Source: Mesorhizobium sp.
Lineage (GTDB): Bacteria > Pseudomonadota > Alphaproteobacteria > Rhizobiales > Rhizobiaceae
Assembly (NCBI GenBank): GCA_004963905.1
Contig: SUGL01000022.1
Span: 59,098 to 123,097 of the forward strand
Length of the DNA stretch: 64,000 bases
Direction of reading: 5' to 3'
The notes beneath the pieces were generated by a model. The model was not told the DNA's origin. It saw only the letters and a program-made list of their open reading frames with translations, and made no database searches. Shown in pieces: positions 8,439 to 56,651 of the stretch. The translations under genes were made by a program, and so were the position numbers. The first letter of the stretch is position 1; each line of letters begins with the position of its first letter.

Positions 8439-8936
8439 TCAGTCCTCGTCCTCGAAGGACGGTTTCTTTTCGGCAATGCCCGCTCGCGCCAGCACCTTGC
8501 GCAGCCAAGGCGGAGGACACGTCCTGAGCATCATCTGCGTGCGCAAGAGCACCTGTGGGATCGATTGGGGCTCCGCCACTTTGATCGGGTGGATTTTTGC
8601 CGCGACAAGCTTGGCTGCCGAAGGGCCGCCAATTGCCAGACAAAACAGGATCTGACAGCCCTTGAGCGCATCCACCTTTGGCGTGATGCGATCATCGCGC
8701 TCGGCCCGATGCTCCCCGCTTTCATCGGACACGTCATCGAAGGCCACGGCTTCTACGAGATTCCATTCCTCGCGCGTCACGTCGTAGACAGCAAAGCGCC
8801 TGGCCGACCCGAAATGGGCGTTGAGGTCCTGCATGTCCTGAGTGGCGATCGCAACGCGCAATGCGCCCTTACGTCGTTCAGGCATCGGGGCGAAAACCTC
8901 ACTACTGACCAGCGAGAGGCGGCGAACAGCGTTCAT
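8439..8936 (-). CDS. nifX: FeMo-cofactor carrier protein NifX
   Basis: The 165-residue product belongs to the NifX/NifY dinitrogenase-iron-molybdenum-cofactor-binding family, which carries NifB-co and cofactor intermediates between NifB and NifEN. The core [20 protein letters not shown] at about residues 26-45 is the family's cofactor-binding fold start. Its ATG overlaps the nifN stop by 4 nt, which implies translational coupling. The same fold is fused to the C-terminus of NifB further along the window. Confidence 0.93.
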
Positions 8937-10285: not shown

Positions 10286-10293
10286 CGGTCGCC

Positions 10294-11778: not shown

Positions 11779-11839
11779 CGCTCAGCCTCCCCAGTCCATT
11801 GGGCAAGGAATGGCCTCGGCGAAAAGCCGGCCACGGCTC

Positions 11840-13381: not shown

Positions 13382-13510
13382 GATGATTACCTCTTTTGCA
13401 TCTGGCTGCGCGGGACGGCAGCTCAGGACGTCAAGACGTTCCAGGCTCCGGCGGATCAGAGGCCGCGGGAGTTCACCGTCTCAGTGGGAGACTGGGGCTG
13501 AAGCAAATGT

Positions 13511-15013: not shown

Positions 15014-15100
15014 GAGTCCCCCTTTCAAGGTTGGGTGACGCCTCAAAGAATAGGCGCCGTTCTCTGCAAGGCGCGCCGATTCATGGCAGCGCTAATGTCA

Positions 15101-16015
<915 letters not shown>

Positions 16016-18971: not shown

Positions 18972-19697
18972 CTAGACCGCCCTCTTGTTACCCCAAAGCA
19001 GAACGTGCAGCTGCGGCAACACGCGGGCTTCGAACCACCTGTCGCTAGTCACCCTTTCGACAAGCCATTCCATTCGCATCATTATTCCGTCCAAGTCGAC
19101 AGAGGCGTCTTCACTGCCAGGGAGCGGCGGCGTGTGATTGCCGGGTTGCAGATAGATCGGAAGGTGCGGATATCTCGCCGCGACTTCTTTGGCGTAGGCA
19201 TAGTCACTCTCGTCGAAAACGACGAGCTTGAGCACGATTTGCGGCTTCTCTTGCGCCGCTTCGAGGCATGCATCAAACGCAGCCCAACGGGTCGTCATCT
19301 CGCTGGACGGCGGCTTTGGGCTAAGGGTCAGCACGTCAAGATCCGCAAACCACTCCCTCACCACGGAACCCTGCGTTTCCAGTGCAAAACGATAGCCCTC
19401 GCGATGGCCTCGTTCTATGAGGGGACCGAACGGCTGAATGGCCGGGTTGCCGCCTGACAAGGAGACCATAACCGGCCTGCCGCCGGAAAGCGCATGGACG
19501 GTTTGCCACACGGCATCGATCGGCATCGGTAGCCATTCATGGCGATACTGATTGTCCACCGCGTGAAGGCTGTCGCACCATGAACAGCGATAATCACATC
19601 CGCCGGTTCTGATGAACACCGTCGGCAAGCCGATGAGCACGCCCTCGCCCTGGATAGTCGGCCCGAATATCTCGCTCACACGGATTGCGGGATGCAT
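18972..19697 (-). CDS. queE: 7-carboxy-7-deazaguanine synthase
   Basis: The product (241 residues from MHPAIRVSE) is a radical-SAM enzyme that rearranges 6-carboxytetrahydropterin to 7-carboxy-7-deazaguanine. The cluster motif CDYRCSWC (CxxxCxxC) follows PTVFIRTGG near residue 34, and SLSGGNPA is the SAM-binding GGE-like segment. Here the usual GGEP reads GGNP, a variant seen in some QueE proteins. It begins just after the queD stop (an ATG 9 codons earlier would overlap queD). Its 3' end is duplicated at 17112-17311. Confidence 0.93.
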
Positions 19698-19702
19698 GTC
19701 GG

Positions 19703-20059
19703 TCACGGACGGTATTCCGCCCAAGTTTTCGGTGTTTCGCTAACGCGCACGGCCGCGGTCTGCGGCAGACGTGCCTTGCACCATTCATAGAAATGTCTGG
19801 CCAGGCATTCCGCCGTGACCTTCTCATGTCCCAGCACGTCGTTGAGGTGCCGATGGTCGAAGCTCTCGTCAATGTAGCGTTTGAGCGGCGCCAGATCGTG
19901 ATAGTCGCGCACGAAGCCGTGGGCGTCCAGTTCCTTGGCCGACAGCTCCACTACGACGACATAGTTATGCCCGTGCAGGCGCGCGCATTGATGGTTGGGA
20001 GGCAAGGAGGTGAGCTGATGCGAGGCCGAGAAGTGGAATTCCTTGCTGATGTGGAACAT
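19703..20059 (-). CDS. queD: 6-carboxy-5,6,7,8-tetrahydropterin synthase
   Basis: The 118-residue product belongs to the PTPS/QueD family that converts dihydroneopterin triphosphate to 6-carboxytetrahydropterin. Zinc-binding histidines are in FSASHQL and CARLHGHNY, and the late segment DHRHLND matches the active site. The queC stop and queD start share bases around 20059, so the two are coupled, and queE follows directly. Confidence 0.94.
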
Positions 20060-20757
20060 TACGCGCGCCTCCTGCGCAGCGCCTCAAGCCAGAAATCGGC
20101 GTCCTCGTAGTCGGTGGGATCAGCGTGCCCGGCGAGATGGAACGCTTCGCGCCGCTCGACGCAGGTCCCGCATCGTCCGCAGTGACGCACGCCGCCCTTG
20201 TAACAGGACCAGGTCTCAGCAAACGGGGTGCCGTATCTTGCGCCATCCGCAACAATGTCAGCTTTTCCGAGATTCACATACGGTGCATAGAGGCGTATCT
20301 GCGCATAGCCGTCGAGCGCGCGGTCTTGCATTGTCTGGAAAGCTTCAATGAAGGCCGGACGGCAATCGGGATAGATGAAATGGTCCCCACCATGCACGGC
20401 CGCCGCCACCGCTTCGGCGCTGTGGGCGGCGGCGAGACCGAAGGCGATTGCCAACATGATGGCATTGCGGTTCGGCACCACCGTAATCTTCATCGTGTCT
20501 TCGGCGTAGTGGCCGTCCGGCACGTCGATACTGCTAGTCAGCGCTGAGCCGGAAAGGCCACGGCCAATTTCGCCGATGTCGATGATCTGGTGCGGGACCT
20601 TCAGTCGCTGCGCGCAAAGAGCGGCGAAGCCCAATTCCTTCCTGTGCCGTTGGCCATAGTCGAAAGATAGAAGGCCGGTGAGTTCGTGCTCCGCTGCCAC
20701 CATGTGAGCAAGGGAAACGGAGTCCAATCCGCCAGAGCAGACGGCGAGAGTCTTCAT
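20059..20757 (-). CDS. queC: 7-cyano-7-deazaguanine synthase
   Basis: The 232-residue product is the ATP-dependent PreQ0 synthase. The PP-loop SGGLDSVSLAH lies at residues 9-19, and four late cysteines in SCYKGGVRHCGRCGTCVERR match the zinc site. I start at MKTLAVCSGG (20757), preceded by GGTATCC and lying downstream of 20 poorly conserved codons. It is first in queC-queD-queE. Neither folE nor queF is in the window, so the cassette alone would produce PreQ0 from a pterin precursor made elsewhere. Confidence 0.95.
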   Translation of the reverse strand: MKTLAVCSGGLDSVSLAHMVAAEHELTGLLSFDYGQRHRKELGFAALCAQRLKVPHQIIDIGEIGRGLSGSALTSSIDVPDGHYAEDTMKITVVPNRNAIMLAIAFGLAAAHSAEAVAAAVHGGDHFIYPDCRPAFIEAFQTMQDRALDGYAQIRLYAPYVNLGKADIVADGARYGTPFAETWSCYKGGVRHCGRCGTCVERREAFHLAGHADPTDYEDADFWLEALRRRRA

Positions 20758-21099
20758 CATTGGTATCCTTGTTTTGACCGGGTAAGGCTGCGACCGGAGA
20801 TTTCTCTGCGCCCCCACTACTCCAGCGACTCAGTTTTGTGAACCGGGAGAATTTGCGCTCAGCCCGATTGGAACGGGAGTGCGTCGCGTCCAACACGCGT
20901 GATCAATAAAAGTTGAGCGCTTCAGCAGTTTGTTTCGCATCGCGCCAACTTTCGCAACCTGCTGTCCGATCGTCGACTTCGAGACAAGGTGATGTTCGGC
21001 CGACATCGGCTGACTCTTAATTAAGCCGCAGAACACATGTTGGCTTTCTGGCCTTCGCTTGTGCGGTTGGCGAGGGCGACATGGATGCCAGCAAATTTG
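20758..21099. other. Intergenic stretch upstream of queC
   Basis: No gene, riboswitch-like PreQ1 aptamer or NifA site could be recognised. The right end merges into the IS630-type remnant. Confidence 0.45.
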
Positions 21100-21271
21100 A
21101 CATTGGCGACATCCGCCTGGAGAACCCTGCGCGGCGCGATTGAGGCCGCAGGCGAGCCTGCTCTAACTGCCGCCCTACAGTCCCGACTTCAATCCGATTG
21201 AGAACGCCTTCGCCCAACCTAAGGCGCTGCTGCGAGCAAAGGCCGAGATAACCATCAAGGCTCTATGGGAC
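21100..21271 (+). mobile_element. IS630-family transposase remnant, left piece
   Basis: The frame LPPYSPDFNPIENAFAQ then KALLRAKAEITIKALWD (about 21166-21271) is the C-terminal catalytic region of IS630 transposases, with the final acidic residue in the PIE of DFNPIEN. Upstream the frame is broken (AIEAAGE in another frame). The piece ends exactly at the inserted IS3-type element, and the rest resumes at 22530. Confidence 0.8.
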
Positions 21272-22529
21272 TGACGTTGCCCCAGCAGTTTTGAGTTCGT
21301 TTCCGGCGTGGGTTGTGCCCTGCTGGGCGGGTGAAGCGACGGGCGCTGGCGCGGAGCCTTTGGCATAGCGCAGCGCGAGCGACCGTCGCGGATTGAAGGT
21401 GCTGGCGAACTTGGCCGGGGTCTGCCAGGGGGGAGTGCGGCCGCGCGGTGTTGTAGTCGGCGTGCCACAGGGCGATGGCTACGCGCGCCTGAGCCAGCGA
21501 GGTGAACAGCGTCTCGTTGAGCAGTTCATCGCGCAGTCGGCCGTTGAAGCTCTCGATGAAGCCATTCTGCATCGGCTTGCCGGGCGCAATGTAATGCCAT
21601 TCGACGCGGTTCTGATCCGCCCAGGAGAGGATGGCGTTCGAGGTGAACTCGCTGCCATTGTCGCTGACGATCATCCTGGGCCGGCCCCGCTCGGTGATGA
21701 GCCGTCCAATTCGCGGGCAACCCGCATGCCCGAGAGAGACGTATCAACGATGAGTGCGAGGCACTCTCTCGTGCAGTCGTCGACGACGGCCAGGATGCGG
21801 AAGCGGCGCCCGTCGGTGAGCTGGTCCGATACGAAGTCGAGCGACCAGCGCTCGTCGGGCCTCAGCGGCACCAGCATCGGCGCCCTGGTCCCGATCGCCC
21901 GCTTGCGGCCGCCACGGCGGCGACGGCGAGCTTCTCCTCCCGATAGAGCCGGAACAGCTTCTTGTGGTTCACGACCAGGCCCTCCCGCCTCAGCATCACG
22001 AGAAGACGCCGGTAGCCGAACCGGCGACGCTCCTGCGCGATCGGCCTTCATCCGCTCGCGAACCTCGCGGTCGTCCGGCCTGCTGGTCTGGTAGCGAACC
22101 GTCATGCGGCAACAGCCGATGGCTTTACACGCCCGCCGTTCGCTCATCCCGAAGCCTTCCTTCAGGCGAGCGACAGCTTTCCGCTTGGCGGCGGGCGTCA
22201 CCATTTCTTTCCCACAAGGTCCTTCAACGCGGCATTGTCGAGCATGGCGTCGGCCAAAAGCCGCTTCAGGCGCGTGTTCTCGTCCTCCAGCGCCTTCAGG
22301 TCGCCGAGCCTCGGTGACATCCATCCCGCCGAAGCGGGCCTTCCAATTGTAGATCGAGGCGTCGCTGACCCCGTGCTTGCGGCACAGATCGCCAACCGAT
22401 ACCCCGGCCTCGTGTTTCTTCAAAATTCCGATGATCTGCTCTTCAGAGAAGCGGCTGCGTTTCATGTCCTGGTCCTCTGGATGGGCCAGAACGAACTTCA
22501 AACCGGATTAGATCAGAGGGGCAAGGTCA
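21272..22529 (-). mobile_element. Degenerate IS3-family element (IS407-like) with transposase broken by frameshifts
   Basis: The element begins TGACGTTGCCCC and, on the other strand, TGACCTTGCCCC, imperfect terminal inverted repeats. GGAC is present on both sides (21268-21271 and 22530-22533), a 4-bp target duplication. Orientation is minus. OrfA starts at 22465 (MKRSRFSEEQIIGILKKHEA) and shifts frame before KALEDENTRLKRLLADAML. OrfB (MVTPAAKRKAVARLKEGFG onward) carries DDE-domain pieces DERWSLDFVSDQ, VDDCTRECL and, in another frame, MIVSDNGSEFTS and GFIESFNGRLRDELLNE. At least three frameshifts beyond the programmed one make it inactive. Confidence 0.85.
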
Positions 22530-22618
22530 GGACGCCTCGGCGCGGTCGTCGACCTCTTCACCCCAGCCGAATGTGCCAACTACTTCAAAGCCGCAGGATA
22601 TGACCTGGATCAGATAGG
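22530..22618 (+). mobile_element. IS630-family transposase remnant, right piece
   Basis: Directly after the IS3-type element the plus-strand frame reads VVDLFTPAECANYFKAAGY, the typical IS630 transposase C-terminus, and ends near 22618. With the left piece it shows that the IS3-type element jumped into an IS630-type element. A one-base indel at the junction means the IS630 frame was already damaged or has decayed since. Confidence 0.75.
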
Positions 22619-22677
22619 ACGTGCTCCAATGGTTTACACCTGACACAGGAGTCCGGCCCCCACAACCGTTTCGCAAT

Positions 22678-22703
22678 GAGGAGCAGCGCTGCCGCTGCTC
22701 CTC
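22678..22703 (-). terminator. Hairpin downstream of the luciferase-like gene
   Basis: GAGGAGCAGCG, loop CTGC, then CGCTGCTCCTC forms a perfect 11-bp stem, starting 16 nt after the stop of the gene ending at 22720. No clear U-run follows on the minus strand, so it may act as an mRNA-end stabiliser as well as a terminator. Confidence 0.55.
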
Positions 22704-22719
22704 CAATCACACGACGGAT

Positions 22720-23754
22720 TCACGATGCGGCAACTCGAGCCATGATTTCGGATCCAATGGCCGATGCGGTGTATAGTGAGGCATCCAGCGGCAAATCCCC
22801 AAATGCCAGTTGACACAGAAGATAATTAGCACCTGCCTCTTCCAGCTGATCAAGGAGAGCTTTTCGGACAGAATCTGCCGTTCCCACGACGCACAATTCA
22901 CTTTCAATTGCTGCATCGAAGTTCAAAGGCAAGTTTGGTGGAGTGGAAATGGCATTTAGTTCGTATAGAAATTTGAAGCTATTGAGCCATCGTTCATAGG
23001 CAGGTGCTGCGAGCAAATACGCATCTGTTTCAGAACGCCCTATCACCACCATTCGGAGCAATCCAAGAAATGGCGCTTGCTGGCCAATGTCAGCATCGTG
23101 AATTCGGGCGGCGCGGAACGCGTCGGTAACGCTGCGAACAGAAGTGGAAGGTCCGACGCAGGCGATGTTTGCCCCATTCGCAGCGGCCCAGCTAGCCGGC
23201 TCGGGTCGATTGGTGGCGATCCATGTCGGCGGACGGGGATATTGGTGAGGTCTCAACGTCAGCGGAACATCTTTCAACTCAAAGTGGCGGCCCTGATAAG
23301 AAAGCGTCCCGCCTTTCATCGCATTGATGAGAATCTCACTGGCCTCCGCATACTGTTCTGGTGCTGCTTCTACAGCAACCCCGAAGTATCCCAATTCAGT
23401 GGGAGCAGAGCCGCGCCCTATGCCGAGTTCAAGCCTGCCGCCGCTCAACTGATCAAGCATGCAGATCTCCTCGAAGGCACGCAGCGGATGATAGAGCGCA
23501 AGTAGCATTACCATGGGACCAACACGAAGACTGCGGGTTCGCTGGGCGACGCTCGCTAAGAACAAATTCGGTGATGGACCTCTGCCATGCGGCGTACAGT
23601 GGTGCTCGGCGAGATGATACGCATAAAAGCCATAGCCATCGCACGCTTCTGCTAGGCTCAGCCGATCTGCATATTGTTGTGCGATGTCATCGCCGTTTTC
23701 GTCCAGATGATCGAAGATGCCGAAGGTCAGGCCCGAAGCGGAAATTTTCTTCAA
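22720..23754 (-). CDS. Luciferase-like FMN-dependent monooxygenase (LLM class)
   Basis: The 344-residue product has the bacterial-luciferase (TIM-barrel) fold of flavin monooxygenases. Family segments include FYAYHLAEHHCTPHGRGPSPN near residue 42, LYHPLRAFEEICMLDQLSGG near residue 86 and LELGIGRGSAPTELGYFG just after. It lies 71 nt downstream of hisC on the same strand, and a hairpin follows it. A hisC-like plus luciferase-like pair (y4wE-y4wF) in Rhizobium sp. NGR234 has been linked to indole-3-acetic acid synthesis; this pair may be its counterpart, which I infer from order and family only. A different LLM protein is encoded at 30959-32011. Confidence 0.85.
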   Translation of the reverse strand: MKKISASGLTFGIFDHLDENGDDIAQQYADRLSLAEACDGYGFYAYHLAEHHCTPHGRGPSPNLFLASVAQRTRSLRVGPMVMLLALYHPLRAFEEICMLDQLSGGRLELGIGRGSAPTELGYFGVAVEAAPEQYAEASEILINAMKGGTLSYQGRHFELKDVPLTLRPHQYPRPPTWIATNRPEPASWAAANGANIACVGPSTSVRSVTDAFRAARIHDADIGQQAPFLGLLRMVVIGRSETDAYLLAAPAYERWLNSFKFLYELNAISTPPNLPLNFDAAIESELCVVGTADSVRKALLDQLEEAGANYLLCQLAFGDLPLDASLYTASAIGSEIMARVAAS

Positions 23755-23825
23755 TTAATTGTTCTCCAAATTACCTATATTTATTCGCTAATCATCATAG
23801 CTCACGACATATCATTACTTGATGC

Positions 23826-24956
23826 TTAATGTGAATCGACTTCATGCTTGTGAGCACCGCGATCCTTCTTAAAGTTCATACAGACGCGTTCGGCGGCAGC
23901 AAGGAATTTGTCCATCTGCTCTGTGGTGCCAATGCTGACGCGAATACAGTTCTTCAAATCTACGTCAGGAAAGCTGGCGATGAGGATCGCCTGCTCTTTC
24001 AACGCGGCTTGCCAGCATGAGCCCTCCTGTCCCGCCGGCACACGGGCCAGCAAAAAGTTTGCGTGGGAGGGTGTTACGGAAAAGCCAAGTTGCAACAGCG
24101 CCAGGGTCACTCGCTGTCGTTCATGCTTGATGTGCCTGTGGTTCTCTTCGTAGGCGTGGCGATGCGCAAGAATGCTTTTCCCGACCGCCTGCCCGATCAC
24201 GTTCATGTTGAAGACATTCTGGATGTTGCGCAGCCTGCCAATGATTTCTGGGTGACCGAAACCGAAGCCGACTCGCACGCCAGCGGCAGCATAGCTCTTT
24301 GAAAAAGTCCTCAAGATCAAAAGATTCGGATGTCTATTGACGAGGCGCAGGGCATTGTCGGGTGCGAAGTCAACGTAGGCCTCATCCAAGACGACCAAGC
24401 GATCTGCTTGCTCCACAAGGCGTTCGATTTCGGCCACCGGCACGAATGTTCCGGTCGGATTGTTCGGATTAGCCAACAGAATGAACTTCGCGTCTTTTGC
24501 GGGGCCGGACAGCAGTTTTTCTATCGGCAGGGGATGAGCTTCGCTCGATGCGATTTCGAGAAACTCGGCACCCTGCAACATGGCAAGTTTACGGTTGAAC
24601 GAAAATCCGGGCGACAGCATTGCCACTCTATCTCCTGGGGCGAGGAAAGCTCTGTAGATGAGTCCGAGCAGCTCCGACGAACCGTTGCCGGCAATCACCT
24701 GATCTTTGGAAAATCCGTAAGCATCGGAGGCAGCTGCCCTTAAGCTGAGATTGTCGTCTTCCGGATAAAGATACTGGTGTTCGATCGCAGCAATTGCACT
24801 TTGCATTACGCTCTTCGGCAACGGAAACGGGTTCTCGTTCGTATTTAGCTTAACGCAGTTTGCATCCGTCGCTGGTCCGTTGGACGAGAGAGCATCTAAT
24901 TTGCTGGCCACCGGCGAAAAAAGCGAAAGCACGGTCTTCAGTTTTGCATCGCACAT
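23826..24956 (-). CDS. hisC: Histidinol-phosphate aminotransferase-like protein
   Basis: The 376-residue product is a fold-type I PLP aminotransferase of the HisC group. LNTNENPFPLPKSV near residue 38 is the N-terminal signature, LANPNNPTG and VLDEAYVDFA bind the cofactor ring, and the PLP lysine is in LRTFSKSYAAAGVRVGFG. GGAGAAG precedes the start by about 6 nt. Histidine genes are otherwise absent, and the downstream neighbour is a luciferase-like monooxygenase, so a specialised role such as aromatic amino acid transamination is plausible. IS21 debris lies directly upstream and may have displaced the native promoter. Confidence 0.88.
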   Translation of the reverse strand: MCDAKLKTVLSLFSPVASKLDALSSNGPATDANCVKLNTNENPFPLPKSVMQSAIAAIEHQYLYPEDDNLSLRAAASDAYGFSKDQVIAGNGSSELLGLIYRAFLAPGDRVAMLSPGFSFNRKLAMLQGAEFLEIASSEAHPLPIEKLLSGPAKDAKFILLANPNNPTGTFVPVAEIERLVEQADRLVVLDEAYVDFAPDNALRLVNRHPNLLILRTFSKSYAAAGVRVGFGFGHPEIIGRLRNIQNVFNMNVIGQAVGKSILAHRHAYEENHRHIKHERQRVTLALLQLGFSVTPSHANFLLARVPAGQEGSCWQAALKEQAILIASFPDVDLKNCIRVSIGTTEQMDKFLAAAERVCMNFKKDRGAHKHEVDSH

Positions 24957-28313: not shown

Positions 28314-28847
28314 ATGACCTATAGAAAGAACGTTCCTCTCGTGACCTTTCGCACGCGTGTTCGCGATGAGTCGATCGGGGGGCCAAATCCTTATCAGTGG
28401 GAGAACAAGACCTCCGACGATTATTTCGGGGGCAAGCGCATCATCCTGTTCTCGCTGCCTGGCGCCTTCACCCCGACCTGCTCGACCTTCCAACTGCCCG
28501 ATTTCGAAAAACTCTATGATCAATTTCTGGAACTGCGAATTGACGCGATCTACTGCGTCTCGGTCAACGATGCTTTCGTCATGAATGCGTGGGGAAAGTC
28601 CTTGGGGCTGCAGAAGATCGAGCTGATCCCAGACGGGTCGGGCGAGTTCACGCGCAAAATGGGCATGCTGGTCGCGAAGGACAATCTGGGCTTTGGCATG
28701 CGCTCCTGGCGATACGCCGCTCTGATCGACGATGGCGTGGTGGAGCAGTGGTTCGAGGAGGAAGGCTTCTGTGACAACTGCGAGACGGACCCCTATGGCG
28801 TTTCATCCCCGCAAAACGTTCTCGACAAATTGAAGGCGGCGGCATGA
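28314..28847 (+). CDS. Peroxiredoxin (Prx5/AhpC-like, symbiotic PrxS type)
   Basis: The 177-residue product is a thiol peroxidase; the peroxidatic cysteine is in PGAFTPTCSTFQLPDFE near residue 56. Two further cysteines in EEGFCDNCETDPYG near residue 151 could act as resolving cysteines. It lies 68 nt upstream of rpoN on the same strand. A prxS-rpoN2 pair under NifA and RpoN control is known in Rhizobium etli, and the site pair upstream here fits that arrangement. It would protect nitrogen-fixing cells from peroxide. Confidence 0.9.
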   Translation: MTYRKNVPLVTFRTRVRDESIGGPNPYQWENKTSDDYFGGKRIILFSLPGAFTPTCSTFQLPDFEKLYDQFLELRIDAIYCVSVNDAFVMNAWGKSLGLQKIELIPDGSGEFTRKMGMLVAKDNLGFGMRSWRYAALIDDGVVEQWFEEEGFCDNCETDPYGVSSPQNVLDKLKAAA

Positions 28848-28915: not shown

Positions 28916-30349
28916 ATGCATCTCTCAGCAAGCCTGCTTCAACGCCAGAAGCAACGTATGGTCTTATCGCCTCAAGCCATTGAAGCTATTCGCTTGCTGC
29001 GATTGACGCATACTGAACTCCATCAGCTCGTGCAGCAGGCACTCGAGAAGAACCCCGTTTTGAAGCCTGACCCGTTTGACGACGATTCGCCGCTGCCAGG
29101 GGTGGATCAGCGGAGCAGTCAAAGCAGAAGCGAAATCGGCGAATCGCCCATTGGCGGGCCGTCTGGCGGGCGCGGGCAATGGAAGTCGCAACGCAGTAGC
29201 GGCAACGATCGACCTGCCGTCGAGGAGTTTACCGCCCACACCGAAACATTGCACGACCATGTCGCCCGCCAGGTCGCCCTCAACCCGTTCACCCCCCAGG
29301 AGCGGCTGATTGCCGGACAGCTCGCCGCTCATCTGGAGGACACTGGCTATCTTCAGGTAAACCTTTTCGATCTGGCCAGGACGTTAAACGTTCGGCAAGC
29401 TGATGTGGAACGGGTCATCGGAATCTTGCAGCAATTTGATCCGCCGGGCATTTTTGCGCGAACTCTCAGCGAATGCCTGGAGATTCAGCTGCGCCAGCAA
29501 GACCGGTTCGACCCGGCTATGGCAGCTTTGGTCGCCAATCTCGAGATGCTTGCACGGGGGGATTTTCAGGGATTGAAGCAGCGTTGCGGAGTCGACGAGG
29601 AGGATCTCCTCGACATGAGGAACGAAATCCGCGCGCTCGATCCCAAGCCTGGAGACCGGTTCCAGTCCGGGACGCCGGAAACCATCGTACCGGACGTCTG
29701 GGTAATGCCCAAGTCCGAAGGTGGATGGCGGGTGGAGCTTGATCCGGCCACGCTGCCCAAAGTGTTGATCAACCACACCTATGTCGCCGAAATCTCGCAG
29801 CTGACCAAGCAAAATCCGGAAGGCAAAGCGTTTCTCGACAATTGCCAGGAAAAAGGGAACTGGCTGATCAGCAGTCTCAAGCAGCGCGCTAAGACGATCC
29901 TTAAGGTTGCGACCGAAATCGTGCGCCAGCAGGATGCCTTTTTTACACACGGCGCCGCCCATCTGCGGCCTCTCTGTCTCAAAAATGTCGCTGACGAGAT
30001 CGGCATGCACGAGTCGACGGTAAGCCGGGTGACTTCGAACAGGTACATGTTGACTCCGCGCGGGGTGTTCGAGCTGAAGTATTTTTTCGCTGCGCCAATC
30101 GCATCCTGCGAGGGCGGCGATGCGCACTCCGCCAAAGCTGTCTGCCATCGGATCAAGGCAATCATAGCCGAAGAATCGCTCGACAAGGTACATTCCGACG
30201 AAGACATCGTTGCTCAACTCAAGGAGACCGGCATCGATGTCGCTCGCCGTACCGTCACCAAATATCGCGAGGCGATGAACATCCCTTCCTCCATACGACG
30301 GCGCCGCGATAAGCGTTTGTCCGCAGCTGCGATCAAGCGAAGTGACTAA
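28916..30349 (+). CDS. rpoN: RNA polymerase sigma-54 factor (symbiotic copy)
   Basis: The 477-residue product is sigma-54. The glutamine- and leucine-rich region I is at residues 1-50 (LLQRQKQRMVLSPQAIEAIR), an acidic linker follows, the core-binding region spans about 110-300, and the RpoN box ARRTVTKYRE recognising the -24 element is near residue 446. A chromosomal rpoN is normally present in rhizobia, so this is probably the second, symbiosis-specific copy (rpoN2). Its own promoter is of sigma-54 type, which suggests autoactivation with NifA. Its 3' end overlaps that of the convergent nifQ by 4 nt. Confidence 0.95.
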   Translation: MHLSASLLQRQKQRMVLSPQAIEAIRLLRLTHTELHQLVQQALEKNPVLKPDPFDDDSPLPGVDQRSSQSRSEIGESPIGGPSGGRGQWKSQRSSGNDRPAVEEFTAHTETLHDHVARQVALNPFTPQERLIAGQLAAHLEDTGYLQVNLFDLARTLNVRQADVERVIGILQQFDPPGIFARTLSECLEIQLRQQDRFDPAMAALVANLEMLARGDFQGLKQRCGVDEEDLLDMRNEIRALDPKPGDRFQSGTPETIVPDVWVMPKSEGGWRVELDPATLPKVLINHTYVAEISQLTKQNPEGKAFLDNCQEKGNWLISSLKQRAKTILKVATEIVRQQDAFFTHGAAHLRPLCLKNVADEIGMHESTVSRVTSNRYMLTPRGVFELKYFFAAPIASCEGGDAHSAKAVCHRIKAIIAEESLDKVHSDEDIVAQLKETGIDVARRTVTKYREAMNIPSSIRRRRDKRLSAAAIKRSD

Positions 30350-30972
30350 CCGACATTCGTGGTCGGCGAGAGGCGACTCTCAACTTCCTCCGGGCCGAAG
30401 CAGCTTTCGAAGTCATGGCATTCCCCGCAACTGGGTGCTGTGCATGACGAAAAGCCTTCGGCCTCACACAGCTTGCGGTAAAAGTACTTTTTCCATTTCA
30501 TGTTTTCTGTGTTGCCTGCCGCCAGCGCGGGAAAATGTCTGGCAAGCAGGCGGCTGAGCTCAGCGCGATTTGAGAGGCCAAGATCCCGCCAAAGATGGTC
30601 CATGCGCATCGCACGCCGGGCGATGATCTTGGCCAAGCGGGCGCTCGCCGGGTCGGCCGGCGCAGCATGCGCTAGCAGCAGCCGGCGTAGCAGTTCCTCT
30701 TCCAGTTCCGGCTCGGGCTCGCTCAACTCCTCCAAAGCGAATACGCTGCTGGAGGTAGACGGGAAAGTTGCGGCCAAGACATCACGCAATTCGACAGACG
30801 AAAGGCCTGTCCCCTCCGTCGCCAACACCTCGCCCGCCTGGACCTCCTCAAGCGAACGTGAATGTACGCAGGGCAGCACATGCTGATCGAAGCTCCTCCC
30901 TAGCTCGGACCCACGCCATTGCGCGCTGGATAGGCAGCCATCATCGTAACGGCCGGCTTCAGCTTCCGGCAT
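30346..30972 (-). CDS. nifQ: Nitrogenase molybdenum-supply protein NifQ
   Basis: The 208-residue product matches NifQ, which provides molybdenum for FeMo-cofactor assembly. The C-terminal cysteine motif C-x4-C-x2-C-x5-C is present as CTAPSCGECHDFESC, and MDHLWRDLGLSNRAELSRLL near residue 119 is typical. It overlaps the upstream luciferase-like gene by 14 nt, so it is the last gene of the P450 operon. Confidence 0.93.
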   Translation of the reverse strand: MPEAEAGRYDDGCLSSAQWRGSELGRSFDQHVLPCVHSRSLEEVQAGEVLATEGTGLSSVELRDVLAATFPSTSSSVFALEELSEPEPELEEELLRRLLLAHAAPADPASARLAKIIARRAMRMDHLWRDLGLSNRAELSRLLARHFPALAAGNTENMKWKKYFYRKLCEAEGFSSCTAPSCGECHDFESCFGPEEVESRLSPTTNVG

Positions 30973-32011
30973 GACAAAGCGCCTTGTTGACCGCAGGGAT
31001 GATCTTGTCGCCCCAGAGCTCGATCTGGCGCAGCATCGTCTTTTGGTCGAAGTCGCCCAATTGAGTCTGAACTGCGATCTGGTCCGGTTTCAAGATATCG
31101 ATCTCTTCCAGCAGGCGATCAATCACGCGATTTACGCTGCCAATCGGCAAATTTTTGCGCATGGTCTCGAAGGACAGATCCTGCTGGGTCGGTGTCTCCT
31201 GCAGCAGGTAGCCATCGTGGCTCTGTTGGCGACGCTGATGCAGGGCTTCAGAAAGCCGGCGCTGGAAGCGGGCATTGTCGAGATAGCTGTTGATCTCCAA
31301 CTCGTCGTGGCTGGCATAGCAGCAGCGCAGCAGCGATATCTTGACGTCGGTGACGTTCTTTTCCTCGGATGCCGCCGCCCTCTCGACTGATTCACGCAGT
31401 GTGGTCAAAGTCTCTAAGCCGTCGTGGAAGGCTGTGACAAAAAAATTGTGCCCCTCGCGGTAGGCCCGAGCCATCCGTGCGGCTCCGCCAGCGATCCAGA
31501 TAGGCGGCGTCGGCTGCTGGACTGTGCGGACCGAAATCGCTGTTGGGGGGATCTTCTCATACTGGCCGTCGTGTTCGAAGACGTTTTGGTTGAGGCCCTT
31601 GAGAATGATGTCCAGGTATTCCGAAAAGACGGCCGGCGCCTCATCGATGTCCACGCCGAACCGTTCGAACTCGAACTGCTGGTATCCCAAGCCTACGCCG
31701 AGCTCGAGACGGCCGTTCGCAACGATGTCGGCGAAGCCGATCTCGGACAGCAGGCGCTGCGGTTGGTAAAGCGGCAGCACGCAGACGGCAGTGCCCAGGC
31801 GAATCGTGCTTGTCAAGCCGCCGCAGTGCGCCACCATCATCAGCGGGGATGGTATGAGGCTGTAATTGTTGAAGTGGTGCTCAGCAAACCACGCGGTGTT
31901 GAACCCAGCCTGCTCCGAAGCGACGGCCTGTTCGATGGAGTTGCGGATGACGCTTTCTGAGGATTGGTGATAGCCACGCTGGGCGGCCAGAATGAAAGTG
32001 GCAAATTCCAT
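30959..32011 (-). CDS. Luciferase-like FMN-dependent monooxygenase of the P450-nifQ operon
   Basis: The 350-residue product has the LLM flavin monooxygenase fold. Typical segments are NTAWFAEHHFNNYSLIPSP near residue 38, LYQPQRLLSEIGFADIVANG near residue 80 and LELGVGLGYQQFEFERFG after it. It shows little resemblance to the LLM protein at 22720. It follows the double SDR by 138 nt and overlaps nifQ by 14 nt. Its substrate is unknown; with P450, ferredoxin and dehydrogenases upstream it probably acts in a multi-step oxidation. Similar genes (y4vJ type) sit by nifQ in NGR234. Confidence 0.85.
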   Translation of the reverse strand: MEFATFILAAQRGYHQSSESVIRNSIEQAVASEQAGFNTAWFAEHHFNNYSLIPSPLMMVAHCGGLTSTIRLGTAVCVLPLYQPQRLLSEIGFADIVANGRLELGVGLGYQQFEFERFGVDIDEAPAVFSEYLDIILKGLNQNVFEHDGQYEKIPPTAISVRTVQQPTPPIWIAGGAARMARAYREGHNFFVTAFHDGLETLTTLRESVERAAASEEKNVTDVKISLLRCCYASHDELEINSYLDNARFQRRLSEALHQRRQQSHDGYLLQETPTQQDLSFETMRKNLPIGSVNRVIDRLLEEIDILKPDQIAVQTQLGDFDQKTMLRQIELWGDKIIPAVNKALCHAGS

Positions 32012-32149
32012 GATTTCTCCTCGTTATAGACACGTCAGCCGACCGGGAATGTGCTCGGCATGCGCATGCTTGGATCTCAAGCACCTCAGGTGCGTCGTGG
32101 AGCCGAGGCTTCATAATGCTCGGCCGGTCGCCCTGCGAAGGCCTGGCAA

Positions 32150-33751
32150 TTAACCTGCGGCCTCCGCAAAACATTCGTCATAGAGCTCGCTGGCGTTTCC
32201 CGCATCACCGAACGAGGTCCAGCCGCCGTCCACGTAGAGGATCGAGCCGTTGATGTATGAGGCGTCAGACGAAGCAAGGAAGAACGATGCATCTGCGACG
32301 TCTTCTGGCCGTCCCATCCTGCCCATGGGGATGCGTCGTCCGATTGCTGTCAGGTCGATGCGGCCGGCTTTGGCCAACTGAGCAAGTGCGGGCGTGCGGA
32401 TGTGGCCAGGAGCGACGGTGGCTGTCCGAATTCCGACCGGCCCGAGTTCGGCCGCCATGCAACGGGTCAGCATATCCATCCCCGCCTTGGAGGCGCCGTA
32501 GGCATGGCGCGGCGCGAACGGCAGAAAGCTGTCGATCGACCCGAGATTGAGGATCACGCCGCCCGGGCGCATAGCCTTGATCGCTTCGCGCGCGCAGGTG
32601 AAGGCGCCGGTAAGGTTGACATCCAGGACGTGTTCGAGCTGTTTCGACAGTTGCTCGATCGCAGGCACAATCCTGTCGGCGGTATCAGCACTATTGACCA
32701 GAACATCGATATACCCGAAGCGTCCCCTCAGTTCTTCGAACATCGACACCACATCGCTCTCGACGGCCACGTCCAGCGATTTCGCCAGATGCTTGCCGGG
32801 GAGCGATGTAGCCAGCTCTGCCGCTGCAGTGCCATCTTTATCAGCAATCACGACGGTGTCGCCGTTCGCGGCAAAGCGGCGAGCGACGGCCGCGCCAATG
32901 CTTTTTGCGCCACCGGTGACGAGCACGATTCGCGCATCTGTGCATTCGGCCGGACAGGAGAGCTCGGCTTGGAGCGCACCATCCACCGGCGGGTGAGCAT
33001 CCCCCGGCTGGTTGAATGACATCCAGCCTCCGTCGACTGCCAGCACCGAGCCGGTGATGTAGCGCGCCTGCGTGCTGCTCAGAAAACGCACGACCCTGGC
33101 GATCTCGTCGGGGCGAGCCAAGCGCCCCATCGGCACGCGGCGGCGTATCGCCGCGAGGTCCATTTTGCCAGCGCGTGCCAGTTCTGTGACCATTGGGGTG
33201 CGGACGGAGCCCGGCGCCACCGCCGTGACGCGGATTCCTCGCATAGCCCACTCGCATGCAAGGGACTTTGTCAACGAGATCACGCCAGCTTTCGAGGCTG
33301 CGTAGGCGTTGCGCCTGGGATTGCCGACCACGCCCGCCATCGAAGCCACATTGACGATCGCACCGCCCGGCTTCATGCGCCGCGCCGCTTCCCGGGCCAT
33401 AACGAATGGCCCAATAAGGTTCACTGTCACGCCGCGTCGGAAGGTATCGACAGCGGTGTCGATGATCCTATCCATCGTGGGTCCAACCGCCGCATTGTTG
33501 ATGAGGACATCGATTTGCGCGAACCGTGCTTCGACCTGGCCGAAAAGTGAGAGCATGTCCTTCTCTCGCGACACATCGCACTCCAGACCGACGTGCGGCG
33601 ACCCGAGATCCCGAGCCAGTTCAACCACACCACTGCCCGGAAGGTCCACCGCAACTACAGTGTCTCCGTCCGCGGCAAGGATATCGACCAGGGCACGGCC
33701 GATCCCGCCCGCAGCGCCTGTGATGATTACGGTGCGTGCTGCCAGTTTCAC
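32150..33751 (-). CDS. Tandem double short-chain dehydrogenase
   Basis: The 533-residue product contains two complete SDR domains in one chain. Domain 1 (about 1-250) has TGAAGGIG, INNAAVG and the catalytic YAASK in RRNAYAASKAG. Domain 2 (about 272-520) has TGGAKSIG, YGASK in RHAYGASKAG, and a changed NSADTA in place of the usual NNAG. Both domains end with YI(T/N)GS...VDGGW and share PMGR(L/M)(A/G)RP(D/E), so they probably arose by gene duplication and fusion. It lies between the ferredoxin-SnoaL gene and the LLM gene in a NifA/sigma-54 operon. A similar gene (y4vI) is known in NGR234. Confidence 0.9.
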   Translation of the reverse strand: MKLAARTVIITGAAGGIGRALVDILAADGDTVVAVDLPGSGVVELARDLGSPHVGLECDVSREKDMLSLFGQVEARFAQIDVLINNAAVGPTMDRIIDTAVDTFRRGVTVNLIGPFVMAREAARRMKPGGAIVNVASMAGVVGNPRRNAYAASKAGVISLTKSLACEWAMRGIRVTAVAPGSVRTPMVTELARAGKMDLAAIRRRVPMGRLARPDEIARVVRFLSSTQARYITGSVLAVDGGWMSFNQPGDAHPPVDGALQAELSCPAECTDARIVLVTGGAKSIGAAVARRFAANGDTVVIADKDGTAAAELATSLPGKHLAKSLDVAVESDVVSMFEELRGRFGYIDVLVNSADTADRIVPAIEQLSKQLEHVLDVNLTGAFTCAREAIKAMRPGGVILNLGSIDSFLPFAPRHAYGASKAGMDMLTRCMAAELGPVGIRTATVAPGHIRTPALAQLAKAGRIDLTAIGRRIPMGRMGRPEDVADASFFLASSDASYINGSILYVDGGWTSFGDAGNASELYDECFAEAAG

Positions 33752-33899
33752 GAGAGCTTCTCCACGATGACCGCTTGTGATCTCAGCCCATCAACCTTGG
33801 GCGGAATGAAGGGCCGAGCCAAATCGTTGCAGTGACCGCCAGTCGCGGCCCCACACAGATGTCGTTCCCGTAGGGCGCTCATCCTCCATTCCTACCCAC

Positions 33900-34748
33900 T
33901 TATGCAGCTCCCAGTTGGGGACCCTCGACGCCATCTTGGTCGGTGGGGATGTGACCCTTGAGCAACTGGTAGATGGGATCGTCTGGATGTGGTGCTCCAA
34001 TCGGCTGTCGCCGGCCGAACCTATCTGCCTCAAGAATCGCTGGCGGGATTTGCTCCTCAACCCAATCGTAGACGACTGTCCGTTCCGCAATTCGCCACTC
34101 GTCCTGCCTCTTCTGAAACAGATCGCAGTAACGGCCGCAAAGCAGCGTCTGACGTATTTCTTGGTCTGTATCCGGTCCGCGTTGCAGCGCGGTGAAATAG
34201 CTCTCGACCGCGGCCTCTGCTGAACTGATGAAGTCGATCAGGCTGTTCGTGATTTGATGGATGTTACGGTGCCCCGGCAGACCGAGAGCAAATTGGATGA
34301 AGTCCTCTGCCGGTCCGCAATAGGGACCGTGCCTGTCATACGCTTCGGGCCAGTATGCGCTACGCAGCGCCGCCTCATCGGCGCGGTCTATCCCGCGGCA
34401 GTACCGATACAGGCAGTTGCGGATCGCCTCTCGGTCACGCAGTTCGGTAATTTTCGCGTGGTCGACAGGGTCTGTCGCGAATTGTATGATTGTTTTGTCC
34501 TTCCCGATGCCAGTCTGCACTTTGCGTGTGTCTCTCTCTACAACTGAGTTAGCGGGGGGCTCGTCAACTTCCAGAGCTTGTTCGGGGCAGGCTCGTACCC
34601 CTTTTGAGGCAAGCAGTTGCTCCCCATCGGCAACATCAATATCACCGGGCAAGATGTAGCCGGCGTCATCAAGCTTGAAGACTCTCGGCGCCCGCGCCCA
34701 GCAGCGCGCATGACCCTGGCATCTGGCTTTATGTACGACGACACGCAT
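33900..34748 (-). CDS. Ferredoxin fused to a SnoaL-like domain
   Basis: The 282-residue product (from [10 protein letters not shown]) starts with a small ferredoxin, residues 1-65. Its pattern CQGHARC with a later CPEQALEV gives C-x5-C...C, the 3Fe-4S type that feeds bacterial P450s. Residues 100-240 form a SnoaL/NTF2-like domain ([16 protein letters not shown] and [12 protein letters not shown]), a fold found in cyclases, hydratases and ring hydroxylase subunits. The gene starts 29 nt after the P450 stop; an in-frame ATG 13 codons earlier would overlap the P450. The fusion suggests the ferredoxin is dedicated to this pathway. Confidence 0.82.
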
Positions 34749-34777
34749 AGCGAACTCCAATGTCGTTGGCTGAAACT

Positions 34778-36043
34778 TCAGGACCATTCCAGGATCAGAT
34801 TCTCGATCCCGAACACATGGCCGCCGAAGGTGATAGGTTCAGTCCCTGTCTTGATCCGAAAGGCTGGGATGCGCGCCAGCCACTCCTCCAGGCCAATGAC
34901 AATCTCCCGCCGGGCAAGGTGTGAGCCAAGACAACGATGGGGACCATAGCCAAAGGCAGCGTGCCGGTTGTCCTCGCGCGCCAGATCGATCTCATTCGGG
35001 CATTCGAATTCCGCCGGGTCACGATTGGCAATCATCGTGGCACAGGAAACATAATCTCCCTTGCGGATCGGCGCGCCTTTGAAGTCGACATCCTTCGTTG
35101 CCACTCGGATCATCTGAATGGTCGAATAGGCGCGCAGCAATTCTTCCGCAGCGACGGCAATCCGGTCAGGTTCGCTTCGTAGCAATTCCTGATCTTTGGG
35201 GTTGCGCGCGAGATGGGCCAAGTCGAAGCATATGGCTGCTGAGACCGTGTCGAGTCCCGCGACGAACACAAGCACGCCGATGCCACGGACTTCTTCGTCA
35301 CTGAGCAGACGACCCTCGACCTTTGCCTTCACGATGAAGGTCATGAAATCATCGACCGGCTCCTTGCGGCGCTCGGTGGCAAGTTCGTCGATGAAGGCCA
35401 CGATCGTCCGGGCTGCGGGTGGTCGTTGCTCCTTATCGCCGTGGAGCAGATCTCTAGCCCAGCCGACAAATGTTTCTAGTCCGTTGTCCGAAAGCCCAAT
35501 AAAGCGAAGGAAGATATTGACCGCGAACGGAACTGCAAAATCCTTCATGATGTCGCAGCTCGTGCCTGATGCGGCGATCCTGTCGATCAGCTTGATCGCT
35601 CGTTCCCGGACAGCCGGCTCCAATGCCATTACCCGCTTTGGCGAAAGCAGCGGATTGAGCAGTGAGCGAAAAACACCGTGGAATGGCGGATCGAGCTCAA
35701 GCGGGATCATCGGCCAGCTCTCGCCGAGCACAGAGGCGAAGATGCTGCGATGGCTGGAAAACGTTTCGGTGTCCTGCAGCACCCGGCGCTGGTCGCTCGC
35801 GCGAGTGATGACCCAGGTACCCCGACCGTCGCGCGTGTTGCTGGTTGAATAAAAGATCGGAGGCCCGGCATGAACGCAAGCAACCGCTGCATGCGGATCC
35901 CCGTTAGCCGTCGGCAACATGCCGGGCGACGTAAACAGGTTGAAGTCCCTCACCATTTCGGGCGGGACATGATCTGGAACCGGCCGCGATTTAACCGCGC
36001 CAGAATCGAGAGACCGTTCATGAGATGCTGTCGGCATTTGCAT
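34778..36043 (-). CDS. Cytochrome P450 (CYP127-like)
   Basis: The product of up to 421 residues is a soluble bacterial P450. The heme-ligand loop [14 protein letters not shown] has Cys371, the I-helix oxygen-binding motif AGLDTVSA is near residue 247, and the ExxR is in EELLRAYS. Order and family match y4vG (CYP127A1) of NGR234. The sigma-54 promoter at 36055-36070 would start transcription at about 36044, right at this ATG. The mRNA may therefore be nearly leaderless, or the internal ATG at 36037 may be used. It is the first gene of P450 / ferredoxin-SnoaL / SDR-SDR / LLM / nifQ. Confidence 0.9.
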
Positions 36044-36054
36044 GCAATCGTCGG

Positions 36055-36070
36055 TGCAAGCTCCGTGCCG
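36055..36070 (-). promoter_or_regulatory. Sigma-54 promoter of the P450-nifQ operon
   Basis: The minus strand reads CGGCACGGAGCTTGCA, differing from the consensus TGGCACG-N4-TTGCA only at the first base, with exact GG-N10-GC spacing. A perfect NifA site lies about 85 bp upstream. Confidence 0.88.
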
Positions 36071-36153
36071 AATTCGTCTTTCGATAATCCTTGCCGTTTG
36101 CTGGGCAACAGGTGGCGCCTGCGCTGACTTGCTGGTCGGGATTGCAACATTCT

Positions 36154-36169
36154 TGTCCAGCGTCGGACA
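36154..36169. promoter_or_regulatory. NifA upstream activator site for the P450-nifQ operon
   Basis: TGTCCAGCGTCGGACA is a perfect TGT-N10-ACA and resembles the prx-rpoN site closely. Confidence 0.85.
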
Positions 36170-37442
36170 CAGAATGTAGAATGCTAGACAGCGACTTGGA
36201 GCAACTCAACTGGTGGGATCGCTAGCCGATCATGTGCCCGGGGAGCATCCAGTTCGAAAGCTTGCGCTAAGCGGCTTGGTGACTTGGCCGAGGTCACCAG
36301 GTGGAAACGACCAACACTTGGGGTGAGCCTAGTGGCGCTCCCCTCGATGATGTCTGGCGGGGTGGTTAGCCGCCTCCGTAGGACAAGATCAGTCTACACG
36401 AATGGACTATAGCCTCTCCTCGCATGCCTCATTGGCCGTCCTTCAGAGCCGGCCACACGAGCTTTTGTCTTTCAGCAGGGCGTTTTTCTCGCCAGCTACA
36501 GAGCCACACCGACGCCATTAATGAGCGTCCAGTCGACGGGTTGGATGGCCCTGTCCATCTTGCCCAGCACCTTGGCTTAGCATTTGCCGGTGCGGCGGAA
36601 GCCTTCAAGACGCAGTTCTTGACCTTCTCCAGATCAGCCTCGGATGGATATCGGCAAGGGTTCAGCTCGTCCTTTTGAACTTGCGCATCTTCGTGTTGGC
36701 CAACCCCAGGCCGCCCGACATATTTGCGGTCTATCCGGCACCTCAACTTCGAACAACCTTGCGGCAAGCTCTTGGGATAGCCCACGCTCGTGCCTCCACC
36801 ACCCGCTCAGCAGAGCCAGATTTGTCGTTGATGGCACGGAACTTGCGGAGTCATTCGCAGATGCGTCACGGACCGAGAGTGTCGTCCCATGAATTCAATC
36901 ACCAAAAAGGCCGCCCGACGTTGCTGGGACCGCCTGCAATTACCTTATCCCAGAATTGGGAGCAACGGCTTCAAAAGGGATAACTCATCACCTCAATTCT
37001 GTCGATCGCGCGGCCATCGAACCGCAGCCATCGATCAGACTTCCGCCTCGTTGCACTCATTGCGACCGCCTTGGTGCTTGCGACGACCGCTCAATTCTGG
37101 CTGCCAGGATAACCGCATATGGCGACGGAACTTCCTGCTTCAAAGCAATATAGAGATCGTCGATCATCCCCCCATCAAGGCCTCGATCGAGGACACCGCG
37201 TTCGGCTTGCTTGGTTCGCAGTGAACAGGCCGCACTTCGACGGATGCGATCGATGCGACCGCGCCGAGAACTCTCCCGCATTGTCGACGGTTGTGTCCGT
37301 CGGCCCTCCGATGAGGCCTCGGATGCGTGGGCGCCGAGGCCTCGACTGAGGCCGACTGGCCGCCGCCGGAAGGTCTAGCGGCTTTGATCCCCGGCGATAT
37401 AGCCACCCCTGCTGCAACAGCTCCTAGCTGGAGAACTCATTC
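36170..37442. other. Long stretch without a recognised gene
   Basis: About 1.27 kb between the divergent P450 operon and the MFS gene. Many short frames on both strands, some 80-120 codons, lack recognisable motifs; fragments around 36430-36980 may be gene debris that I cannot name. No regulator gene for the MFS exporter was found. Confidence 0.45.
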
Positions 37443-56496: not shown

Positions 56497-56651
56497 TTGG
56501 CGATGTAGAATTCTATTTTAATCGTATAGAACAATTGAGAAACGTCGCCAATCTGAACACCTCGCCTCGGATCATGGCGTTCGGACGATGACTGCCGTAA
56601 GATTCCACCCGTGTGGGGCAAGGCTGCTACCGGCCTGCGACGGAGGGGAAC

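Follow-up and report, generated by a model that had tools for sequence, protein, structure and literature searches.

Closest described systems

The closest described counterpart of the locus analysed here is the nifQ-dctA1-y4vGHIJ gene run of Sinorhizobium fredii NGR234, which starts with nifQ and a dicarboxylate symporter gene and also holds genes for a cytochrome P450, a SnoaL/NTF2-like protein, a double short-chain dehydrogenase (SDR), and a luciferase-like monooxygenase (LLM). The operon that we studied lies in a 64,000-nucleotide stretch of Mesorhizobium sp. DNA (contig SUGL01000022.1, positions 59,098 to 123,097; hereafter the window) and encodes these four enzymes in the same order, with identities to NGR234 of 74% (P450), 67% (SnoaL), 63% (SDR), and 82% (LLM). 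Each of the four is orthologous to its NGR234 counterpart; an earlier note on this DNA had pointed to homologues there by gene order (y4v genes, CYP127A1). While nifQ belongs to the same gene run in both, it is the last gene in the window, where no symporter gene is found among the five, and the SnoaL domain of the window is fused to a ferredoxin, for which the NGR234 operon gave no match. Our preferred reading, to which we give a probability of about 0.45, is that of a bacteroid operon under NifA/sigma-54 control that would break down or inactivate a small, terpenoid-like alicyclic compound of probable host-plant origin through a camphor-like chain of reactions.

A second relative is msi332-msi331 on the symbiosis island of Mesorhizobium loti R7A, a NifA-preceded P450 gene with a possible ferredoxin gene, whose expression in nodules depends on NifA2 (PMC3538637; this and the other papers cited by PMC number are drawn on in excerpt). 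There, a nifQ fragment stands before the P450 gene, and the working nifQ is found elsewhere, with no NifA promoter of its own; nodule expression of nifQ falls from 200.6 to 9.7 when nifA2 is missing (PMC3538637). A nifQ mutant of R7A is described as partly effective, and mutation of nifQ in NGR234 as leaving fixation unaffected (PMC3538637, citing Fumeaux 2011). Already known, then, are the gene set, from the NGR234 y4v genes, and the dependence on NifA, from R7A, while new here are the orthologues of the LLM and SnoaL in catabolic-looking clusters outside rhizobia, and a substrate-class hypothesis drawn from these soil and marine relatives of the P450's partners.

The degradation of camphor by Pseudomonas putida involves P450cam, hydroxycamphor dehydrogenase, and diketocamphane monooxygenases, and the window operon shares this enzyme logic of a CYP101-type P450, an alcohol dehydrogenase, and a luciferase-fold monooxygenase. 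It differs in that its ferredoxin is a single-cluster CxxHxxC protein (Fer4_15) and not a putidaredoxin, its P450 has a tryptophan in place of Tyr96, a SnoaL domain is added, its LLM is not closest to the camphor enzyme, and control is by sigma-54 and NifA. By analogy, the ferredoxin would feed electrons to the P450cam-like P450 for hydroxylation of a ring, the double SDR would oxidise the resulting alcohol to a ketone, the SnoaL domain might eliminate water or isomerise, and the LLM might insert oxygen in a Baeyer-Villiger-like manner and so open the ring, using reduced flavin from a reductase encoded elsewhere. NifQ would share the transcript in many lineages but stand outside the chemistry. 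Here, we infer the order of the steps, the substrate class, and the direction; breakdown is preferred over synthesis because the relatives of the LLM and SnoaL look catabolic and no backbone-forming gene is found among the genes scanned. Where the earlier note had left it open whether the operon makes or breaks down a signal, the balance thus leans to the latter.

Layout of the operon

The description of five same-strand genes with short gaps proved correct, as all five reading frames are open and match their named Pfam families (Table 1). The gene for the P450, which we take from the earlier note to be of the CYP127 type, overlaps that for the ferredoxin-SnoaL protein by 10 nt, and the end of the LLM gene overlaps the beginning of nifQ by 14 nt, while the remaining two gaps within the operon are 148 and 138 nt. 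Both halves of the double SDR retain TGxxxxIG and YxASK, the luciferase-type EHH motif is present in 41 of 41 LLM rows across loci, and the CQGHAxC motif of the ferredoxin in 54 of 54. The ferredoxin is the probable redox partner of the P450. The sole minus-strand terminator-like site detected (34123-34140) is intragenic, and the operon would be co-transcribed along its full length. At its 3' end, nifQ overlaps the convergent rpoN2 gene by 4 nt, and this gene together with that of the peroxiredoxin corresponds to the prxS-rpoN2 unit of R7A (PMC3538637).

Table 1. Features of the operon, its promoter region, and its direct neighbours (positions in the window).
Feature	Position	Strand	Remarks
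Second NifA upstream activator site	36175-36190		exact TGT-N10-ACA; missed by the earlier note
NifA upstream activator site	36154-36169		exact TGT-N10-ACA
Sigma-54 -24/-12 element	36055-36070	-	CGGCAC-N5-TTGCA, one mismatch
Cytochrome P450, 421 aa	34778-36043	-	Pfam p450; heme Cys371, AGLDT, and ExxR intact
Fused ferredoxin-SnoaL protein, 295 aa	33900-34787	-	single ORF; Pfam Fer4_15 and SnoaL_4
Single-cluster ferredoxin domain	34560-34748	-	residues 14-76 of the fused protein; CxxHxxC...CP
SnoaL_4/NTF2-like domain	34077-34445	-	residues 115-237 of the fused protein
Double SDR, 533 aa	32150-33751	-	GTG start; two SDR stretches (Pfam)
LLM, 350 aa	30959-32011	-	Bac_luciferase (PF00296); EHH motif
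nifQ, 208 aa	30346-30972	-	Pfam NifQ
rpoN2-type sigma-54 gene	28916-30349	+	convergent neighbour
Peroxiredoxin	28314-28847	+	upstream of rpoN

Promoter and control by NifA and sigma-54

The near-consensus -24/-12 promoter and the perfect NifA site that had been reported before the P450 gene are both real, with one mismatch in the former and none in the latter, and the second exact NifA site recurs in the window-type loci (L083-L086; L and G numbers are our own for loci and genomes). Taken singly, such sites show no excess over chance in the window (10 NifA sites where 7.4 are expected, and 37 sigma-54-like sites with at most two mismatches where 34 are). We counted as a promoter pair any -24/-12 element, up to two mismatches being allowed, that has a NifA site 50-200 nt ahead of it. 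The chance expectation was taken from 100 first-order resamplings per locus, and only 1 of the 100 resampled copies of the window's upstream region contains such a pair. We looked for this pair upstream of the P450 in 57 loci, these being the window, NGR234, S. mexicanum, Mesorhizobium AR10, 50 other Mesorhizobium stretches, and three loci from the wider family, and found it in 44 (the window and 43 of the 56 others), where 0.1 were expected. The sets of 56 and 57 include one exact duplicate, as L005 and L038 are one record (AR10), and the loci are related to each other; with exact duplicates removed, the pair is present in 41 of 54 distinct upstream stretches, and once stretches at least 90% alike over 500 nt are merged, in 25 of 35 groups. 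Among the 13 loci without it (L006, L071, L089, L045, L046, L049, L069, L070, L077, L078, and L080-L082), L006 (NGR234) and L071 have nifQ upstream, and L089 is a partial locus.

The distance from promoter to gene ranges across the loci from -27 to about -500 nt. In the window, the transcription start computed from the -12 GC (36056-36057) falls at about 36044, while the first ATG of the P450 reading frame is at 36043, so that the mRNA would be nearly leaderless or the true start codon lies further in; the P450 gene of AR10 is annotated 16 codons shorter at this end. In nodules, an msi332::lacZ fusion of R7A gave 446.6 in the wild type, 273.5 without nifA1, and 14.6 without nifA2, and since the strain is a merodiploid it yields no knock-out phenotype (PMC3538637). 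Moreover, the P450 gene cpx is listed as a NifA target in several Rhizobiales (PMC4999443). With an orthologue dependent on NifA2 and cpx so listed, control of the operon is known in kind, and together with the pair in 44 of the 57 loci this upholds the NifA/sigma-54 control put forward in the earlier note.

Control shared with the nif genes, the neighbouring peroxiredoxin and rpoN2 genes, and the grouping of the NifA-regulated cpx with microoxic adaptation (PMC4999443) also fit another explanation, namely that the P450 and LLM consume oxygen or surplus reductant near nitrogenase, the substrate being incidental. We consider this very improbable, as the near-invariant substrate pocket described below and the presence of the SDR and SnoaL argue for a specific substrate.

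The NifA protein encoded in the window itself (62037-63095, minus strand) has just 352 aa and matches its NCBIfam model from position 190 of 534, and so appears to lack the N-terminal sensory part.

Co-occurrence with nif genes

Within the window, nifN, nifE, nifK, and nifH occupy 8933-15994 (nifH, 15101-15994). Among 146 Mesorhizobium genomes, the P450 is found in 100 (E up to 1e-100), and a strong nifH match (E below 1e-90; 97 above the curated cut-off and three truncated, in G018, G021, and G052) is found in the same 100 and in 0 of the 46 others, the lists being compared by eye. NifQ is found in 101 of these genomes, the extra one (G007) being without P450 or a strong nifH match. P450, NifQ, and nifH are each present twice in G075 and in G076 (the P450 copies at 100% and 82% identity), perhaps as two symbiosis islands within one genome.

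In the family, 9 of 199 genomes have the P450 (E up to 1e-80), and all nine have nifH or nifK. Seven of them have nifH, while G168 and G419, which gave no nifH match above the cut-off, match the window nifK at 88-89% (in G419 over part of its length only); these two had been candidates for a P450 without nif genes and were dropped for this reason. Conversely, nifH is present without an intact P450 in G934, G985, G995, G1036, and also G498, which has a partial match. Among the matches listed for plasmids (60 of 166 records), a full-length P450 is carried by symbionts of bean, soybean, Acaciella, and Oxytropis, as well as by the Medicago isolate Rhizobium sp. T1470; S. meliloti, S. medicae, and several records of R. 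leguminosarum and R. beringeri have it in fragments.

What the enzymes resemble

The closest solved relatives of the P450 are P450cam and other CYP101 enzymes, which are matched over nearly the full length at E of about 1e-66. In P450cam, whose residue numbering we use for the pocket positions as placed by alignment, Tyr96 binds the camphor ketone, and the redox partner is a [2Fe-2S] protein of the putidaredoxin type. Across 56 aligned P450 rows (one of them a duplicate, with hosts known for the few named records only), the Tyr96 position is Trp in all 56, Thr101 is replaced by Leu in all 56, Leu244 is kept in 56 and Val247 in 54, Phe87 is replaced by Ile in 52, and the Ile395 position is His in 53; the positions of Phe98, Val295, and Asp297 are more variable. 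Such a largely invariant pocket suggests one substrate class, although, given the Trp at position 96, camphor itself is not implied. In one locus (L079, genome G009), the P450 has no [AG]GxDT motif and shows an unusual heme-loop pattern, and it is possibly altered or failing; the column of the heme cysteine is kept in all rows.

A near-invariant pocket would also be expected of one defined product, and rhizobia do have a gibberellin operon, which likewise combines P450s with an SDR-type enzyme on symbiosis plasmids or islands (PMC3557214). The operon could then, in a similar way, oxidise a host or bacterial precursor into an active signal during fixation. Such synthesis or tailoring seems unlikely to us: among the five genes and those other window open reading frames that were scanned, a part of the total, no terpene or prenyl diphosphate synthase was found, which agrees with the distinction from the gibberellin operon drawn in the earlier note, nor any polyketide synthase or nonribosomal peptide synthetase (PKS, NRPS), and the LLM and SnoaL orthologues sit in catabolic-looking clusters.

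The ferredoxin is matched best by the corresponding portion of a ferredoxin-CYP143 chain (8amq). The structural model of the SnoaL protein has a mean pLDDT of 64 and is of high confidence in the SnoaL domain alone, for which Foldseek gave LinA, scytalone dehydratase, and bile-acid 7-alpha-dehydratase as the nearest folds; both family and fold match a SnoaL-type dehydratase, the activity being predicted. The LLM model (pLDDT 86) matches bacterial luciferase best, with diketocamphane monooxygenase lower down. Similarly, a profile search with the LLM reaches 3,6-diketocamphane monooxygenase, though bacterial luciferase is nearer, and luciferase alpha, 2i7g, and 7bip rank above 4uwm and 5aec.

A single reading frame encodes both ferredoxin and SnoaL in 13 of 56 loci, located at two places in the P450 tree, on which the fusion needs three changes. 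In the loci without it, they are separate genes or one is absent, and in L026 a shift of one base puts them in different frames. The linker region of the window fusion contains no in-frame ATG and one in-frame GTG. We had considered two independent fusion events, but gave this up since the linkers of both groups align with each other, which makes a single origin with gene exchange as likely; we therefore claim no convergence.

Gene content and selection across the loci

Gene content was counted in 49 of 51 loci (the window and 50 Mesorhizobium stretches), namely those with at least 6.3 kb behind the P450, in stretches of about 2.5 kb upstream and up to 8 kb downstream of it, and a gene was called intact when it met the coverage threshold without a stop inside the match. 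On this count, the ferredoxin is intact in 48 loci, SnoaL in 44, the LLM in 37, and the SDR in 33, a ranking that favours the P450 itself because the loci were selected for carrying it. All of ferredoxin, SnoaL, SDR, LLM, and nifQ are intact in 20 of the 49, and seven more lack nifQ alone in the stretch examined.

The earlier note had nifQ co-expressed with the pathway. It is the last of the five genes behind the promoter but not a fixed member, being intact downstream in 33 and upstream in 1 of the 49 loci; in G024 it lies on the same strand about 3.6 kb upstream, beyond the 2.5 kb or so counted. Its linkage is common without being fixed; we regard nifQ as often travelling with the operon, whose promoter would place it under NifA, and as having no part in the chemistry.

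The median pairwise dN/dS, with rows containing a stop or of low coverage excluded, is 0.17 for the P450, 0.26 for the ferredoxin, 0.19 for SnoaL, 0.25 for the SDR, 0.13 for the LLM, and 0.24 for NifQ, and all operon genes are under purifying selection. These values, well below 1, together with motifs intact in nearly all rows, the conserved promoter, and the ferredoxin intact beside the P450 in 48 of the 49 loci, leave very little room for the view that the genes are passengers of symbiosis islands with no present function, to which partial decay in several lineages and the missing Fix phenotype for the P450 in the excerpted Table 2 of PMC3164228 would otherwise lend themselves.

Relatives outside rhizobia

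The synteny comparison found the gene set in Mesorhizobium loci and NGR234, and the whole set in no non-rhizobial record (among plasmids, 60 of 166 records listed). Two members of the set recur together elsewhere. Two roseobacter plasmids have orthologues of the LLM (61% and 57% identity) and of SnoaL (55% and 59%), and two Variovorax plasmids, unannotated records read by tblastn, have an LLM at 45-46% and a SnoaL at 49-54% identity. These stretches share genes for a tripartite-tricarboxylate (TTT)-type binding protein, a LysR regulator, a flavin reductase, and SDRs, and also have those for an enoyl-CoA hydratase, an acyl-CoA ligase, and an acyl-CoA dehydrogenase, with an SMP-30 lactonase in three of the four. 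Judged by this gene content, the clusters look catabolic. In the stretches searched, the LLM-SnoaL clusters outside rhizobia gave no P450 match. The LLM and SnoaL may hence be read as two catabolic enzymes recruited into the NifA regulon.

A wider scan of named genomes by LLM alignment, with the best 80 of 376 relatives kept, placed a LysR match beside the LLM in all 80 loci, most with further cluster genes. A SnoaL orthologue in the same direction (E up to 1e-20) is present in 31 of the best 80, all within the 32 loci L104-L135, and L137 has a weaker SnoaL match (39%). The symbiotic LLMs of rhizobia group in one separate, well-supported clade in a tree of 131 LLM rows (quick method, midpoint root), and the groups nearest to this clade are the LLMs of these scanned relatives. 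The Variovorax, Pseudacidovorax, and roseobacter clusters thus resemble the window operon in their orthologous LLM and SnoaL and in nearby SDRs, and differ from it by their transporter, flavin reductase, CoA ligase, and beta-oxidation genes.

For P450s, a family is delimited by more than 40% identity, and the closest P450s from outside rhizobia among the matches listed (60 of 166 plasmid records) share 31-40% identity with that of the window; order- and phylum-wide samples added one further distant P450 (36%). Four neighbourhoods of these non-rhizobial P450s hold only parts of the gene set, these being an NTF2-like gene (32% to that of the window) and an SDR within 6 kb in Sphingomonas JE1, an LLM and an SDR in Mycobacterium branderi, and SDRs in Croceicoccus and Novosphingobium.

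Weighing of the proposed function

Several observations count against the operon being one camphor-like breakdown pathway. The SDR and LLM are intact in merely 33 and 37 of the 49 loci. In S. meliloti (L102, 5573-8056), SnoaL and LLM are kept beside a P450 reduced to a fragment, and in R. leguminosarum (L103, 6289-10047), SnoaL, SDR, and LLM are kept with no P450 match; in neither locus do the 4.5 kb ahead of SnoaL contain a -24/-12 element or a NifA site. With the SDR and LLM lost in several lineages and the P450 in S. meliloti, the parts are separable and the steps not obligately linked. In the scan by LLM alignment, 49 of the best 80 loci are without a SnoaL orthologue at E up to 1e-20. The Trp at the Tyr96 position speaks against camphor itself, and in both sequence and predicted fold the LLM appears nearer to luciferase alpha than to the known Baeyer-Villiger LLMs. 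The P450 is entered as Nod+Fix+ in the excerpted Table 2 of PMC3164228, where B. japonicum USDA110 and Rhizobium sp. BR816 are named; such P450s are expressed in bacteroids (PMC3164228, citing Luyten 2001). Finally, genes for uptake, a CoA ligase, a flavin reductase, or beta-oxidation are missing from the operon, which points to inactivation or detoxification, or to reliance on genes elsewhere.

The separable losses keep alive an explanation in which two loosely joined units share one promoter, with the P450 and ferredoxin hydroxylating alone, in detoxification or hormone tailoring, and SnoaL, LLM, and SDR treating a different or later compound, the set now drifting apart. Here, the P450 stands with its ferredoxin and neither SDR nor LLM in 8 of the 49 loci (L048, L050, L062, L066, L073, and L080-L082) and is still under selection, as its dN/dS is 0.16-0.24 in seven pairs among the lineages without intact SDR and LLM, the eighth pair being identical; the S. 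meliloti locus fits as well, and so do the non-rhizobial LLM-SnoaL pairs, whose searched stretches gave no P450 match. Set against this are the 20 loci with all five partner genes and the seven that lack nifQ only, and the fusion of ferredoxin to SnoaL in 13 of 56 loci, which ties the units to each other. On balance, we hold two such units to be doubtful, if the most credible of the alternatives.

Returning to breakdown of an alicyclic compound, no substrate or product of the homologous operon, nor a paper on the substrate of the LLM/SnoaL cluster, was found in the literature searched, which covered few subscription journals; the earlier note likewise knew of no assigned chemistry. In a genome-wide association study (GWAS; PMC8407117, in excerpt), an LLM COG and a P450 COG are among the competitiveness hits, and these could not be tied to this locus. 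A broader and rather unlikely extension is that all nif-bearing Mesorhizobium use a nodule-stage pathway, made up of a P450cam-like P450 and an LLM/SnoaL catabolic pair from soil bacteria, to remove one common legume compound. If so, bacteroids would adjust a host signal while fixing nitrogen, with the compound being, for instance, an apocarotenoid, a jasmonate-like compound, or a terpenoid signal or defence compound. What P450s do in bacteroids beyond gibberellin synthesis is a long-standing question, and it has become testable now that the P450 is tied to NifA and to the presence of nifH (all 100 Mesorhizobium genomes with a strong nifH match against 0 of the 46 others) and a substrate class has been proposed from the relatives of its partners.

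Other features of the window

Some 3-9 kb from nifH, a minus-strand group (18972-24956) holds QueE (18972-19724) and QueC (20059-20817) of 7-deazaguanine synthesis and, near them, a second luciferase-like monooxygenase (22720-23754) and a HisC-like aminotransferase (23826-24956). A QueE gene is tabled as lower in a nifA mutant of Paraburkholderia phymatum (PMC8305402). Further along, a toxin-antitoxin pair on the plus strand consists of a DarT-type ADP-ribosyltransferase (56613-57161) followed by a NADAR-DarT1 antitoxin (57163-57876), and a large subtilase autotransporter with Peptidase_S8 and Autotransporter domains lies on the minus strand at 58525-61638.

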